Position numbers and translations under genes: made by a program. From contig NZ_JAHLZY020000001.1 in NCBI RefSeq assembly GCF_018967865.2, positions 1,984,001-2,048,000 of the forward strand: a stretch of 64,000 nucleotides of DNA, written 5' to 3'. Source of the stretch: Hymenobacter siberiensis (GTDB lineage Bacteria > Bacteroidota > Bacteroidia > Cytophagales > Hymenobacteraceae). Shown piece by piece: positions 6,700 through 30,820 of the stretch. Within the stretch, counting starts at the first letter, position 1. Each line of letters begins with the position of its first letter. The notes beneath the pieces were generated by a model. It had not been told where the DNA came from and ran no database searches. It worked only from the letters and a program-made list of their open reading frames with translations.

Positions 6700-7901
6700 T
6701 ACTCTACCCTACTATTTTTCAGGTACAAAAACGGGGCAGCCCGACCTTTGGGGTTACGACACCACCAAAAACCCGTTCTGCCCCGTGAAGCAACACTTCG
6801 CCGCTAAAATTACGACGCTTTTGCAGCAGGCCCCGTTTGTGGGCCACTTGTCCCGCCAAAAGTTTGTGGGCCAGTTTATTCTTGGCCTGATAAAGAGCCG
6901 CAACGTGCAATTCGGCGAGGTGGCCCAGCACCTCAATGACGCGGCCAAGCCCGCCTCGAACGAAACGCGCATTCAGGACTTTTTCCGCGAAGTAGACCTC
7001 AATTACGTACTGGTGGCCAGGATTTTACTGAGTTTGTTGCCTGCGCAGGGCAAGCTGCGCTTATGCCTCGACCGCACGGAGTGGGACTTCGGCCAGTGCC
7101 AAGTGAACATCCTGCTCGTCACCGTCGGCACGGGCGAGGTCCACGTGCCCCTTTATTGGCACCTGCTCGACAACCGCAGCGGCAACTCCAACGCCGCCGA
7201 CCGCATCGCGGTGCTCGAAAAGTGCCTGGCCTTGCTGGGCAAAGACCGCATCGGCCTGGTCGTGGGCGACCGGGAATTTGTCGGCCATGCGTGGTTCAAG
7301 TGGCTCAAAGACAATGGGCTTAATTTTGTCATGCGCCTGCCCAAGCACCACTGCCTGACCCACGCCGACGGCCGGCGGCAGGCCGTGGCCGACCTGGGCC
7401 TGGTGCCGGGGCAGGTGCGCCGCTTCGCCCACGTGCAGGTCGACGGAGTCTGGGGGCAGGTCTGGGTCAAGGCCGTGGCGGCGGACGCGTTTGTCTTCCT
7501 GTTTGCCACGGCCGGTCTGAACCACCTCGAGCAACTCTATGCCAAGCGCTGGACGATTGAGCAATGCTTTCAAAATCTGAAAGGGCGGGGCTTTAACCTG
7601 GAAGCCACCCACTTGCGCTGTTTCCAAAAGCTGCGCAAGCTCGTGGCCCTGGTCAGCCTGGCCTACGCGTTTTGTCTGGGCGTGGGCGCGGCCGCCCACG
7701 GCGGCCGCCAGCCCATTGCCCGCAAAAACCACGGCTACCGGGCCGCCAGCCTGAGCCGCCACGGCCTCAATCTGCTCCGCCAACTCGCCCGCCCGCTGAC
7801 CCTGCCCGAGGACCCATTGGCCCGCTTGGTTGAAACGCTACTGAACTGGATTACGAGGCAACTTGCTAAAAATCAATTACTAAAAATAGTAGGGTAGAGT
7901 A
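6700..7901 (+). mobile_element. IS4-type insertion sequence, complete, 1202 bp
   Basis: Perfect 20-bp terminal inverted repeats: TACTCTACCCTACTATTTTT at 6700-6719 and its exact reverse complement at 7882-7901. One transposase gene fills the interior. I see no target-site duplication: GGGGTTTGA on the left and GCTTTTTCA on the right do not match, so the copy may be old or flanked by a rearrangement. Confidence 0.92.
6785..7897 (+). CDS. IS4 family transposase
   Basis: A DDE transposase of about 370 residues. The first acidic residue is in LCLDRTEWDFG, the second in IGLVVGDREFVG, and the glutamate in YAKRWTIEQCFQNLKGRG, which fits the IS4 Y-(2)-R-(3)-E-(6)-K signature. The frame is open upstream to 6689, but that lies outside the left terminal repeat, so the start must be inside the element. 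GTG at 6785 (VKQHFAAKITTLL) is the most likely start, since sequence upstream of it reads through the repeat. The stop at 7895-7897 lies inside the right repeat. The gene looks intact. Confidence 0.88.
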   Translation: MKQHFAAKITTLLQQAPFVGHLSRQKFVGQFILGLIKSRNVQFGEVAQHLNDAAKPASNETRIQDFFREVDLNYVLVARILLSLLPAQGKLRLCLDRTEWDFGQCQVNILLVTVGTGEVHVPLYWHLLDNRSGNSNAADRIAVLEKCLALLGKDRIGLVVGDREFVGHAWFKWLKDNGLNFVMRLPKHHCLTHADGRRQAVADLGLVPGQVRRFAHVQVDGVWGQVWVKAVAADAFVFLFATAGLNHLEQLYAKRWTIEQCFQNLKGRGFNLEATHLRCFQKLRKLVALVSLAYAFCLGVGAAAHGGRQPIARKNHGYRAASLSRHGLNLLRQLARPLTLPEDPLARLVETLLNWITRQLAKNQLLKIVG

Positions 7902-8078
7902 GCTTTTTCATAGGACCAAAAAATTGCGTGAAACAAATTGCCCGCGCTGGCTAGAGCACGGCCAATTGGGGTGGCTTTAATGAGGAAAAGCAATTCCGGG
8001 TTCTGATAAAGCGCAAATAGGTAGCCTGAAATCCTCCGAACAAGCATTTGCGCTCGTCGTTGTAATCCCGCTAAGCCA

Positions 8079-13015: not shown

Positions 13016-15436
<2,421 letters not shown>

Positions 15437-15455
15437 TAGCCTATTCAAATAGGCA

Positions 15456-15564
15456 CCAAAAAGCACGTCATGCAGAGCGCAGCGAAGCATCTTTACCGCG
15501 TAACGCAATCAATTACTATTGCGGTAAAGATGCTTCGCTGCGCTCTGCATGACGTGCTTTTTGG
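15456..15564. repeat. Palindromic element, GTCATGCAGAGCGCAGCGAAG family, perfect 44-bp arms
   Basis: 15456-15499 is the exact reverse complement of 15521-15564, with a 21-base loop. It lies in the convergent gap after the E1 gene and could fold as a long hairpin in either transcript. Confidence 0.92.
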
Positions 15565-15605
15565 ATGGGTTCTAAGCAGGTAACGCTGTAGGCCGGCCCG
15601 CGGGC

Positions 15606-20475: not shown

Positions 20476-20931
20476 GTGTTCGTGAAGAAGTCTTTTGTGA
20501 TACTGGCCCTGCTGGCCCTGACCAGCGTCCCGGCCTTCGCCCAGAAAAAACCAGCCGCCAAAGCCCCGGCCAAAAAAGCCGTGTCCGGCGTTTCGGCCGC
20601 CACGCTGTTGCAGGGCAAGTCCATCTACACCCAATACTGCCTCACCTGCCACCAGGCCGATGGCCTCGGTGTGGACGGCATGAACCCGCCCCTAGCCAAA
20701 ACCGACTACGTGCTGGGCGACAAAACCCGCCTGATAGGCGTGCTGGTCAACGGCCTGAAAGGCGTGGACATCAACGGCGAGGAATACCACGGCGTGATGC
20801 CCTCGCAGAGTTACCTCAACGACCAGCAAATGGCCGATGTGCTGACGTACGTGCGTAACTCGTTCGGGAACAAGGCCAGCGCCGTGACGGTGAGCGAGGT
20901 GAAGACCGTGCGGGCGGCTGGGAAGAAGTAG
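20476..20931 (+). CDS. Cytochrome c, single haem, periplasmic
   Basis: A 151-residue exported protein with signal KKSFVILALLALTSVPAFAQ and a Lys/Ala/Pro-rich linker. The class I cytochrome c domain has the haem motif CLTCH (CxxCH) near residue 55, GLGVDGMNPPLAKTDYV, and the distal Met in HGVMPSQSYLNDQQMADVLTYVRNSFG. Start is GTG 20476 or GTG 20482 (which gives MKKSF); the second makes the more usual signal. It lies 3 bp after the sugar dehydrogenase and probably takes its electrons. The stop codon directly adjoins a palindromic element. Confidence 0.88.
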   Translation: MFVKKSFVILALLALTSVPAFAQKKPAAKAPAKKAVSGVSAATLLQGKSIYTQYCLTCHQADGLGVDGMNPPLAKTDYVLGDKTRLIGVLVNGLKGVDINGEEYHGVMPSQSYLNDQQMADVLTYVRNSFGNKASAVTVSEVKTVRAAGKK

Positions 20932-20933
20932 CC

Positions 20934-21052
20934 GTGCCGGTCTGACCGCCCTAGGCGGTCAGACCGGTTGATGTGTGCCTATCTTGGTGCGCAACATCAA
21001 TCGGTTATAGCAACGACAACCGGTCAGACCGCCTAGGGCGGTCGGACCGGCA
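20934..21052. repeat. Palindromic element, CCGGTCTGACCGCC family, with inner inverted repeat
   Basis: GTGCCGGTCTGACCGCCCTA (from 20934) to 20967 is inverted at 21019-21052. Each arm is itself nearly palindromic around CTAG (GGTCTGACCGCC / GGCGGTCAGACC). Between the arms TTGATGT (20968) faces ACATCAA (to 21000). Confidence 0.85.
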
Positions 21053-21059
21053 CGACACC

Positions 21060-21095
21060 AAAAAAGGCCACTCCCGCGCGGGAGTGGCCTTTTTT
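21060..21095. terminator. Terminator downstream of RNase P RNA
   Basis: AAAAAAGGCCACTCCCGC (21060-21077) pairs perfectly with GCGGGAGTGGCCTTTTTT (21078-21095). It serves the minus-strand RNase P RNA, and possibly the cytochrome c transcript from the other side. Confidence 0.88.
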
Positions 21096-21099
21096 GATG

Positions 21100-21516
21100 A
21101 TTGGTGATGGGTCTGTAAGCCGGGTTTTGTCCGGGGCCGAAGCCCCTGCCTCACCATTTATCTAGGCCAGTCCTCGCGGAAAGGCTCCATCAACCTACCC
21201 GCTGGCGCCGGACGAGCCGCCCGGAGCCGATGCCGCCCGAAGGCTGCGCCGGCGTACCAGCTTATTTGGTCTTTCAACCCCTGAGGTTTACCCAGCCGGG
21301 ACGGTTGCCCGCCCGCTGGTGCGCTCTTACCGCACCTTTTCACCCTTACCGGCACCGGCCCGAAGGCCGGTACGTAGGCGGTAATTTTCTGTGGCACTTG
21401 CTGTCCTGGGTTGCGTTATGCGCGCCAGTCCTTCCCGTTAGGAAGCAAGGTGCTCTGTGTTGCCCGGACTTTCCTCGTCGCCCGAAAGCGCCGCGGTGAG
21501 GCGACCCATCACTGCG
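21100..21516 (-). ncRNA. rnpB: RNase P RNA, bacterial type A
   Basis: The minus strand carries the conserved core of RNase P RNA. Near the 5' end is GAGGAAAGTCCGGGC (P4 strand); then ACAGAAAATTACCGCC, GGTAAGGGTGAAAAGGTG, CGGTAAGAGCGCACCAGC, and near the 3' end GACAAAACCCGGCTTACAG. The terminal P1 helix forms between GTGATGGGTC at the 5' end (about 21503-21512) and GACCCATCAC at the 3' end (about 21104-21113). Length near 415 nt fits. It is the catalytic RNA that removes tRNA 5' leaders. A -7 box lies at 21519-21526 and a strong terminator at 21060-21095. Exact ends are estimates. Confidence 0.95.
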
Positions 21517-21518
21517 GG

Positions 21519-21526
21519 CAAAGGTA
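21519..21526 (-). promoter_or_regulatory. RNase P RNA promoter -7 box
   Basis: TACCTTTG on the minus strand fits TAnnTTTG exactly and places the start of transcription within a few bases of the expected RNA 5' end. Confidence 0.6.
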
Positions 21527-21542
21527 GCACACGAATAAACTA

Positions 21543-21586
21543 GAACGTTATCCTGAGTGAAGTCGAAGCATCTCTACCGCGCAAAG
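21543..21586. repeat. Single arm of a GTCATGCTGAGC-type palindromic element
   Basis: GAACGTTATCCTGAGTGAAG through TCGAAGCATCTCTACCGCGC is one arm of the family whose full palindromes lie at 24933-25028 and 30680-30790; no opposite arm follows. It supplies the stop codon of the split gene at 21574-21576. Confidence 0.7.
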
Positions 21587-22047
21587 ATTCTCCCAAGTTT
21601 TGTTAGGAATAGCTCAAAGCCTGGAATCGGCGGGGCAAATTGGCAAGTTAAAAGTTGCTGGCTCCCATTGTAATTGTAGTCGGCAAACCAATAGTGGTAA
21701 TCATCAATCTGATTAAGAAGCTGTTTAGAAAGTCCCCGAACGGTCATGCAGCGCGCAGCAAAACATCTTGCTCGCATCGTCAGGCCCGTTCAACGATGCG
21801 AGCAAGATGCTTCGCTGCGCGCTGCATGACCGTTTGAGTACCTTTTGTGACTTTCTAAACAACTCCTAAATGTGACTTCTGACGGCATATCGTGCATTCT
21901 ACTAAACTTTCGTTTCAGTGCAATGAATAATTCACAATCAGGAGGCCAGCCTGGGTTAGCTACTATTTCCATAATCTCATTACCAGCAGCCAATTCCTTT
22001 TTAAGTATGTGCCGCAGAGGAGGCGCTAGTTTGTCTAGAGGTGCCAT
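21574..22047 (-). pseudogene. Small conserved hypothetical gene split by a ~150-bp palindromic insertion
   Basis: The N-terminal part, from ATG 22047 to 21868, is exactly 60 codons (MAPLDKLAPPLRHILKKELA ... NPGWPPDCELFIALKRKF ... EVTF). It then runs into the palindrome and stops within it. On the other side, in another frame, the missing end continues (LNQIDDYHYWFADYNYNGSQ ... LLTCQFAPPIPGF). Together they match a family of about 100-residue proteins with a GN.I.E, GWP, DxxHYW and LxC layout; that recognition is from memory. The ATG overlaps the M1 peptidase stop codon as TAATG, so translation was probably coupled. Function unknown. Confidence 0.75.
21716..21867. mobile_element. Palindromic mobile element inserted in a coding sequence
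   Basis: Termini AGAAGCTGTTTAGAAAGTC (21716-21734) and the complement of AGGAGTTGTTTAGAAAGTC (21849-21867) form 19-bp inverted repeats with two mismatches. Inside, CGGTCATGCAGCGCGCAGC begins a second, nearly perfect palindrome of the GTCATGCNGNGC family. There is no coding capacity. About 150 bp removal restores the host reading frame. No clear target duplication. Confidence 0.75.
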
Positions 22048-23918
22048 TACTTCCCCTCCCACACATTATCCTTCGGGTAGCTGTCCGGCACCAGGGTGCT
22101 GCCCAGGGTTACGCGTTTCAGGGGCTGCTTGGTGGCGACGGGAACGGTGACGGAATTGGTCCCGGTTTCCCATACGCCGATGCTGCGGTGGATTTTCTGG
22201 GTGGTGTTATCGGCGAAGGTGATGGTGAGGTCGACCGGGACGGGTTTAGTGCCTTTGGCCTGCACCTGGATGTCGTAGCCGGCGGTGCTTTTGGTGACGC
22301 GGGCGATGGCCAGGTCGGGGTAGCCATCATCAAAAAACCAGCGCTGCCAGAACCAGTTAAGGTTGCGGCCCGCCCCGGCGTTCATGCTGTTGAAGAAGTC
22401 GTAGGGCATGGGGTGCTTGCCGTTCCAGTTCCGAATGTAGGTGTGCAGCGACTTGGTGAACAGCTCATCGCCGAGCATATCCTTCACGTAGAGGTAGCCC
22501 ATGCCGGGCTTGGGGTACGAGTTGAGAAAAAACGGCATCCCCGTTTGCTGGGTGCTGAGCGTGACGATGGGCAGGTCGTTTTCGGTGGCGGCCTGGGCGG
22601 CGTAGCGGGCCACGCCGTAGTCGTCGTCCAGTTTGGGGTCGATGATACCCGAAATGAGCCACTCGCCGATGGTGGCCCAGCCCTCGTCCATCCAGCCGTA
22701 CTTGGTTTCGTTGATGCCCATGTAGAAGGGGAACATCGTGTGGAAGATTTCGTGGTCGGTGAGGGTGATGGCGTCCTCGCGGGTGGCGGTGGGGTTGTCG
22801 TTCACCATCATGGGGTACTCCATCTGGTCGAGGCCGTCGAACACGGTTTCGTGGGCGTAGGGAAAGGGCCACTTCGGGAAGGTGTAGCTCATGGCCTCCA
22901 CCGTTTTGCGGCTGAAGTTGATGACTTCCTTGTAGTCTTCGTGCTTGGGATTGTACACGGCATCGACGCGGGTGCGGCGCTTGGTGGCGGGGTCCACCAC
23001 CAGGCTGGTGCTCTGCCACACGTAATGGTCGGCGGTGGCGAATACGAAATCGGTAACGTTTTTGGCCTCGAAACGCCAGGTATTCTGGTCGGTCTGGGCG
23101 GTGATGTCGCGGCGCTTCGCATCGTCCTCGCTGATGATGCTCACCACGGTGTCCTGCTGCTCGGCATCGCGCAGGCGCTGGGCGTACCTTGGGGCCAGCA
23201 CTTCGGCGGCGTTGGTGAGGTCGCCGGTGGCCCAAACCACGAAATTCTTGGGCACGGTGATGGCGGCTTTGAAATTGGCGAAGTCGTTGTAGAACTCCTG
23301 GTCGCCGGTGTAGGGCACGCGGTTCCAGCCGTCGAGGTCGTCGTACACGGCGATGCGCGGGAAGAAGTAAGCCACGAAAGCGGCCCCCGGCTCAACTTCG
23401 CCGGTGCGCTGGTGCGAGCTCTTGTTGAGGGTGTAGGCGTAGGTGGCACGCACCGTGGCAATCTGGTGCGCCCTGAGGGCACGGCGCAGGGTTATGGGCA
23501 GGTTGGTGGCGTCGGGGGCCAGCTTGCTCACATCGAAGGTTTCGCCGTTGATGCTGAGGTTGAATATTTTAACGCCGTCGCTCACGTCTTCCGGGGCAAT
23601 GGCGCGGCTGCGGGGCGCCCCCTTCTGGTAGAGGTTGGGGTAGAGCTTGAACCAGAGCTGCTTGAGCGAATCGGGGCTGTTGTTGACGTACTTGATGTCT
23701 ACCGTGCCCGACACGAGGCGGGTATCGGGGTTGAAATTCACGGCCAGGTCGTAGTCGGCGGTGTTTTGCCAATAGTTGGGGCCGGGCAGGCCGGTTTCGG
23801 CGCGGGTGCCTTTGGCGTAGGTGGCTTGCAGGTTGCGCGGTACGGGCAGCGCGGGCTGGGCGCGGGCCACTGAGACCAGTAGAAAAAGGGCAGCGGCAAT
23901 CCGACCAAATGGTTTCAT
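22047..23918 (-). CDS. M1 family metallopeptidase
   Basis: A 623-residue exported zinc aminopeptidase-like protein. The start is ATG 23918, which opens the signal peptide MKPFGRIAAALFLLVSVARAQ; an upstream frame extension is ignored. The N-terminal beta domain has YDLAVNFNPDTRLVSGTVDI. The catalytic domain has MEYPMMVNDN (in place of the usual GAMEN exopeptidase loop), the zinc motif HEIFH and the third ligand Glu in WMDEGWATIGEW, about 18 residues later. It probably cuts peptides in the periplasm. The small split gene follows with a TAATG overlap. It is convergent with nothing, and the phosphoesterase gene lies upstream on the same strand. Confidence 0.9.
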   Translation of the reverse strand: MKPFGRIAAALFLLVSVARAQPALPVPRNLQATYAKGTRAETGLPGPNYWQNTADYDLAVNFNPDTRLVSGTVDIKYVNNSPDSLKQLWFKLYPNLYQKGAPRSRAIAPEDVSDGVKIFNLSINGETFDVSKLAPDATNLPITLRRALRAHQIATVRATYAYTLNKSSHQRTGEVEPGAAFVAYFFPRIAVYDDLDGWNRVPYTGDQEFYNDFANFKAAITVPKNFVVWATGDLTNAAEVLAPRYAQRLRDAEQQDTVVSIISEDDAKRRDITAQTDQNTWRFEAKNVTDFVFATADHYVWQSTSLVVDPATKRRTRVDAVYNPKHEDYKEVINFSRKTVEAMSYTFPKWPFPYAHETVFDGLDQMEYPMMVNDNPTATREDAITLTDHEIFHTMFPFYMGINETKYGWMDEGWATIGEWLISGIIDPKLDDDYGVARYAAQAATENDLPIVTLSTQQTGMPFFLNSYPKPGMGYLYVKDMLGDELFTKSLHTYIRNWNGKHPMPYDFFNSMNAGAGRNLNWFWQRWFFDDGYPDLAIARVTKSTAGYDIQVQAKGTKPVPVDLTITFADNTTQKIHRSIGVWETGTNSVTVPVATKQPLKRVTLGSTLVPDSYPKDNVWEGK

Positions 23919-23974
23919 AAGCAACAAAGTAGCAGCAGGCGCTGCGAAAGGAATAGGCACAAAGAAAATAGCAG

Positions 23975-24901: not shown

Positions 24902-24932
24902 GGAATGTAGGAGTGGAATGGGTAGAAAATCA

Positions 24933-25028
24933 GAACGTCATGCTGAGCTTATCGGAGCATTTCTACCGCGCGACTAAATCTGATTAGTTGCGCGGTAGAA
25001 ATGCTCCGATAAGCTCAGCATGACGTTC
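24933..25028. repeat. Palindromic element, GAACGTCATGCTGAGC family, perfect 39-bp arms
   Basis: 24933-24971 is the exact reverse complement of 24990-25028, with an 18-base loop that is itself partly self-complementary (ACTAA / TTAGT). Confidence 0.92.
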
Positions 25029-25055
25029 AAAACAGCCGTCACAAAACTTGAGAAC

Positions 25056-30667: not shown

Positions 30668-30679
30668 TGAAGCGGTTAT

Positions 30680-30790
30680 TCAGAACGTCATGCTGAGCGC
30701 AGCCGAAGCAGCTCGCGTGCCATAGTATCCAATCGATTGAGTTACTACCACACGCGAGCTGCTTCGGCTGCGCTCAGCATGACGTTCTGA
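30680..30790. repeat. Palindromic element, AGAACGTCATGCTGAGC family, perfect 40-bp arms
   Basis: 30680-30719 is the exact reverse complement of 30751-30790, with a 31-base loop. It lies in the convergent gap between the GH13 and BadF kinase genes. Confidence 0.92.
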
Positions 30791-30820
30791 GACGCATCTC
30801 AGTACTAACAAAACCAGCGT

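Follow-up and report, generated by a model that had tools for sequence, protein, structure and literature searches.

MITEs of bacteria have been defined, with examples, in PMC3733652 and PMC10969869. The sections on MITEs in these two papers describe elements of 70-300 bp with inverted terminal repeats, which are non-coding and present in many copies, differ between strains and have ends in common with an IS. Some classes of dispersed bacterial palindromes have no known transposase, as stated in the section of PMC3733652 that deals with them. The CGTC repeats treated there are reported from phyla including Bacteroidetes and are without a dedicated transposase.

We analyzed a window of 64,000 nucleotides of Hymenobacter siberiensis, in which a small gene is interrupted by a 150-bp element. 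The element resembles the described MITEs in all of the points above. It has 18-bp inverted terminal repeats, is flanked by a target site duplication (TAA), and contains only short mechanical ORFs within its 150 bp and no transposase of its own. Its family has many copies (198 end matches, IS ends included) and shows insertion polymorphism (empty sites in G059, a genome labelled as the same species as the source), and its ends are common with an autonomous element, the same 18 bp being present in eight IS copies. Unlike in the described MITEs, however, the interior is a long near-perfect palindrome akin to a genus-wide repeat that is also found without these ends. We read the element, with a probability of roughly nine in ten, as a non-coding MITE that carries a genus-wide palindrome and would be moved in trans by an IS5 transposase. 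The points of interest are the recurrent palindrome interior and its contraction in place.

The element and the interrupted gene

The features of the locus, in coordinates of the window, are as follows.

21717-21866, no strand assigned: MITE with IS5-type ends and palindromic interior, 150 bp, absent from the site in G059
21717-21734, plus strand: terminal inverted repeat GAAGCTGTTTAGAAAGTC, identical to the ends of the 915-bp IS
21849-21866, minus strand: terminal inverted repeat GGAGTTGTTTAGAAAGTC, read on the minus strand, two mismatches to the other end
21714-21716, no strand assigned: left copy of the target site duplication TAA, single in G059
21867-21869, no strand assigned: right copy of the target site duplication TAA, single in G059
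21729-21780, plus strand: left arm of the long inner palindrome, overlapping the end repeat
21793-21844, minus strand: right arm of the long inner palindrome, pairing with 21729-21780
21868-22047, minus strand: first 60 codons of the interrupted small gene, with a start that overlaps the peptidase stop (TAATG); intact in G059
21574-21714, minus strand: remaining 46 codons and stop of the small gene, resuming in the same frame
22047-23960, minus strand: M1-family peptidase gene (PF01433), upstream of the small gene

An earlier reading made from the sequence only had placed an element of 152 bp with 19-bp ends at 21716-21867. An element is present there, but it measures 150 bp (21717-21866) and its ends are 18 bp long. 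These terminal repeats are identical at 16 of 18 bases. The inner palindrome, which that reading had also noticed, was found with 52-nt arms that are 88% complementary and with a single-strand RNA fold of -94.5 kcal/mol. Two more copies in the same genome, at G000:C1:659499 and G000:C1:4036449, are identical to it over all 150 bp.

The small gene starts at the ATG of TAATG at 22047 on the minus strand. The overlap with the peptidase stop, taken earlier as a sign of a true gene, was confirmed; the gene is real and is intact in G059. It had also been proposed that the gene is split after codon 60 and that both parts belong to one small protein. The rest of the gene does resume at 21714 in frame, and the two parts, of 60 and 46 residues, agree at every position with the uninterrupted protein of G059, so that both halves fall within one protein and not in two different families. 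The element and the duplication together add 153 bp, or 51 codons, and the frame is kept. Removal of about 150 bp therefore restores the frame, as had been claimed, but the element also brings an in-frame stop at codon 86 (position 21790), and the interrupted gene now codes for 85 aa, 25 of which come from the element. In G030, a homologue likewise stands after a peptidase of this kind; it is colinear with both parts and gap-free across the insertion point, where EVRFQLVDDCHYWFAEY of the homologue aligns with EVTF/NQIDDYHYWFADY of the small gene. No Pfam or NCBIfam model matched this homologue at the default limit. With the first 60 residues as a query, the small gene was found in 4 genomes, the source genome among them, of a set of 59 to which G059 did not belong. 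The RNase P RNA (RF00010, class A) adjoins the interrupted gene at window 21100-21512 on the minus strand.

The IS5-family partner and the copies in the genome

The same genome holds eight nearly identical 915-bp IS copies, with 0-7 base differences from the copy L078. All eight have perfect 18-bp ends, the same as those of the MITE except that the right end of the MITE differs at 2 of 18 bases, and all are flanked by 3-bp duplications. The IS encodes a 276-aa transposase that matches NF033580 (IS5) with 134.7 bits at a cut-off of 110, and also PF13340 and PF01609 above cut-off; it is an IS5-family DDE transposase. Between the interiors of the MITE and the IS, blastn gave chance-level matches only (best 17 bp, E 0.48). 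G089 has a close relative of the IS (89% identity), and the element was unmatched among the 8 candidates scored in that genome. As a putative partner of the MITE, the IS5-family element is well supported. Since the ends are shared, the duplications are of the same size and both elements reside in one genome, we infer movement in trans, in which an IS5 transposase, supplied from elsewhere, would bind the shared 18-bp ends and move the MITE. The mover is probably the resident 915-bp IS5-family element.

Further elements with the same end had been expected in the genome, and a search with a 16-bp end pattern gave 198 occurrences at up to one mismatch, the first 100 of them listed by place. The reversed-pattern control gave 0; therefore, the end pattern is not a product of chance. 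We read 98 sources from the genome, namely the window and 97 loci, among which 18 had been chosen for a core away from the listed ends and 20 for an end without a listed partner. No end pair under the limit of the script was present in 15 of the 98, and the others yielded 85 elements, which fall into three size classes: 79-99 bp (42 elements), 140-153 bp (35) and 915 bp (8). Duplications of exactly 3 bp flank 58 of these 85 (26 of the 42 short, 24 of the 35 long and all 8 IS elements), compared with 8.07 on average and never more than 17 over 500 rounds of shuffled pairing. The remaining 27 have no matching 3-bp duplication, and 4-bp duplications flank none of the 85. We also scanned 54 of a further 80 loci for end pairs, and 36 yielded a pair with at least 14 of 16 bases matching. 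Although some of these pairs are doubtful, ends of the GAAGCTGTTTAG type are clear in, among others, Hymenobacter montanus, artigasi and terrestris. A plasmid search with L041 gave no match. Two MITE copies of 89 and 90 bp (L090 and L095) share the flank type GAAC / AACGTCAT, which looks like insertion at the margin of other palindromes.

The palindrome inside and outside the MITE

At E <=0.001, the element has matches in at least 95 of 101 genomes of the genus (counting the source genome and G059), with 8 candidates scored per genome. Among the matches listed outside these two genomes, most cover the palindrome only and some span both ends (G097 and G107); most of those listed in other genomes end at positions 22-27 and 114-119 of the query. 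We viewed 28 loci from other genomes, taking GAAGCTGTTT with up to two mismatches as end-like sequence, which was found on both sides in four (L148, L158, L161 and L166), on one side in four and on neither side in 20. In the source genome, 18 core loci away from the listed ends, drawn from 100 of the 124 core matches, were divided equally into nine with IS5-type ends, complete or worn, and nine without. The window itself contains four more palindromes with the core motif and without the ends, three of which are common to G059 and one is not. These comparisons showed the MITE interior to be a long palindrome of a genus-wide superfamily, and the MITE to be IS-like only at its ends.

A 143-bp palindrome-bearing segment without IS5-type ends lies at window 15435-15577, where G059 has GAGG (4 bp). 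When its palindrome was used as a query, at least 78 matches were found in the source genome with 40 of 219 candidates scored, mostly covering the palindrome only. The segment shares some sequence beyond the palindrome with G000:C1 2989294, 937373 and 3152383, and an outer hairpin of GCCTATTCAAATAGGC points to an element of another kind.

Other end types were observed in G001 and G107. Among the matches listed there, ends of the AGAAAG, AGGAAG and GAGTTA types occur, many of them paired and some mixed. We read 19 end pairs from these two genomes, chosen by spacing, which bound 100-193 bp. A core of the GTCATGC/GTCATCC type was present on at least one strand in 18 of the 19 pairs, the lone core-less pair being L359, versus 52 of 2000 random 150-bp segments of the window. 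A script test detected 3-bp duplications in 11 pairs and not in 8, and the misses were mostly of the GAGTTA type (6 of 10 GAGTTA pairs). Three MITEs of G001 (L365-L367) are hybrids with one AGAAAG-type and one AGGAAG-type end, and 3-bp duplications were seen in two of these three. The locus L372 (G030:C11:358190-359347), with 958 bp between GAGTTA-type ends, was considered as an autonomous partner of the GAGTTA type and rejected as a nested insertion; read by eye, it is a palindrome element of the GAGTTA type into which an IS5-family element, bounded by ends of its own (GAGAGTGTGGACAGT), has inserted.

Because nearly all of these differently ended elements hold the core, we infer that one palindrome superfamily may have been captured repeatedly, and this is the new part of the finding. 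Palindromes of the superfamily would have come to stand between IS5-type ends and would then have spread as cargo. We further propose, tentatively and at less than even odds, that the Hymenobacter palindromes are modular cargo, taken up more than once by IS5-type ends (AGAAAG, AGGAAG, GAGTTA and hybrids), each uptake giving rise to a multi-copy MITE, and that the hairpin favours spread while shrinking by slippage. Should repeated capture of the same palindromes prove true, a single genus would allow tests of how dispersed bacterial palindromes arise and spread.

The capture step, though not the MITE reading, has a competitor in which the end-less palindromes derive from MITEs by wear and the palindrome has belonged to the MITE interior all along. 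Copies of QMITE2 that are truncated and lack ends, and that resemble REPs according to the part of PMC10969869 that treats them, are in keeping with such wear, and so are the four of 28 loci with one-sided end-like sequence, some of which may be due to chance. Decay, however, must repeatedly delete the ends yet spare the arms, and the end-less copies retain long well-paired arms with abrupt edges (e.g., window 24927-25034 and 30674-30796). We regard such an origin by wear as rather unlikely. Alternatively to capture, recombination between MITEs could have swapped their cores.

It might also be supposed that the palindrome family has a mobility of its own, as REP elements with RAYT tyrosine transposases may have, and that the IS5-like ends are incidental. 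The core does occur without these ends in the source genome and in other genomes of the genus, the source genome has nine Y1_Tnp matches (eight above cut-off), and G059 lacks one end-less palindrome of the window, at 15435-15577. This strain difference is not a clean insertion, however, and the boundary of the insertion in the small gene lies at the IS5-type ends with a 3-bp duplication, not at the palindrome. Core matches were found at only two of the nine Y1_Tnp loci, by which a palindrome with a tyrosine transposase was rejected as the mover of the window element, and we consider self-movement very improbable.

The empty site and other sites in a second strain

Returning to the reading of a MITE moved by an IS5 transposase, we compared the window with G059. 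Window 21020-21716 and 21867-22700 map to abutting stretches of G059 that overlap by 3 bp (G059:C1:3441670-3441672). The site is ATCTGATTAAATGTGA in G059 and ATCTGATTAA, followed by the 150 bp and TAAATGTGA, in the window. G059 has an intact ORF here (L201:1308-1643), which is 111 aa from GTG and 106 aa from ATG. Alignment with related genomes, which the sequence-only reading had put forward as the way to the empty site and the exact termini, thus found both, with a 3-bp collapse; the split arrangement is not general among relatives, as the G059 gene is unbroken. Because this gene is uninterrupted and the flanks abut and share only 3 bp, the window element is, by this comparison, a recently moved MITE. 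The alignment shows an element that evidently entered the small gene once the source strain and G059 had diverged, and that duplicated 3 bp.

The two-strain picture would be formally identical if G059 had precisely excised the element and the split gene were the older state. Such an excision must remove the element and exactly one 3-bp copy, restoring a 106-aa frame that is colinear with the G030 homologue, and the window copy is identical to two other genomic copies, as a recent arrival would be; excision therefore has only a few chances in a hundred's worth of our belief. A mistaken gene call at an original hairpin of the ordinary sort, or at a transcription terminator, would fit the strong hairpin (-94.5 kcal/mol), but is refuted by the empty site, at which the G059 gene is intact without the hairpin, by the G030 homologue in the same place after the peptidase, and by the target duplication that flanks the element, and has almost no probability left.

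The recent insertion of a MITE was not the only difference between the strains. We entered 75 loci of the source genome, three of which were without an end pair, and compared the remaining 72 with 1.2 Mb of G059 by their 300-bp flanks. Both flanks were found together on one G059 strand at 18 sites, the window included; the other loci had no match, one flank only or flanks apart in this 1.2 Mb. Three of the 18 sites are empty in G059 with an exact 3-bp collapse (the window, L067 and the IS copy L080), 11 are occupied at equal length, with L132 differing at its right end, and one is unclear (L107). The earlier claim that the palindrome family moves is accordingly borne out for copies with IS5-type ends, by the empty site and the 3-bp duplications, but not for the family as a whole, many copies of which are end-less.

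The last three sites differ in length between the source genome and G059 (L049, 150 versus 89 bp; L129, 89 versus 150 bp; L106, 96 versus 91 bp), and ten same-length pairs show 0-11 base differences. Two of these sites, L049 and L129, each show a clean deletion of 61 bp within the hairpin between the strains, with unchanged ends. The breakpoints of the deletions are 4-bp direct repeats, GCAT at L049 and ATGC at L129. These deletions fit slippage, apparently on opposite arms at the two loci. The hairpin may later contract in place, taking the element from 150 bp down to 89 bp, when slippage occurs between the 4-bp direct repeats of its arms. Inversion of the loop among the 89-bp copies was also considered; deletion from either arm accounts for both orientations.

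Two other places in the window were noted in the alignment with G059. At 20930-21060 there are two inverted copies of a GGTCTGACCGCCCTAGGCGGTCAGACC-type palindrome, and the alignment is broken there. At 6700-7902, the window has a repeat about 1.2 kb long that is present several times in G059, whereas about 270 bp stand at that place in G059; this is possibly an IS-type difference between the strains.

Comparison with known systems

The element provides a recent and exactly mapped transposition of a palindrome-bearing family and points to a likely mover, and the paired strains show changes in hairpin length at fixed sites. The element is unreported in the titles and abstract openings of the literature on Hymenobacter MITEs, on its insertion sequences, transposases and repeats, on its palindromes and on the species, a scope made up mostly of open papers; among the titles listed from the wider literature on MITEs and palindromes, none reports it.

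Like REPs and CGTC-tagged repeats, as described in the sections of PMC3733652 on these repeats, the Hymenobacter palindromes are dispersed, and several of them hold CGTC at the base of the arm. In the same sections, REPs are palindromes of 20-40 bp with an unpaired GTAG or CGTC tag, whereas the end-less Hymenobacter palindromes shown are mostly about 90-110 bp with a paired CGTC, and the window element has 52-nt arms and no unpaired tag in its fold. The element also resembles the Rickettsia palindromic elements, as treated in the corresponding part of PMC10969869, in that it is palindromic, about 150 bp long and located in a coding gene, with an added length that is a multiple of three. Unlike them, it brings an in-frame stop at codon 86 and so breaks the gene; no ORF runs through it, and a Rickettsia-type in-frame element was rejected for this stop codon. 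The comparison with MITECca01 of Cardinium is drawn from the part of PMC9769881 that describes this element. The parent of MITECca01, ISCca4, is listed under the IS982 family, and the two share conserved sequence by the left end, whereas the Hymenobacter partner is an IS5-family element with which the MITE showed no homology outside the 18 bp. In both cases, a MITE of Bacteroidota shares its inverted repeats with a resident IS.
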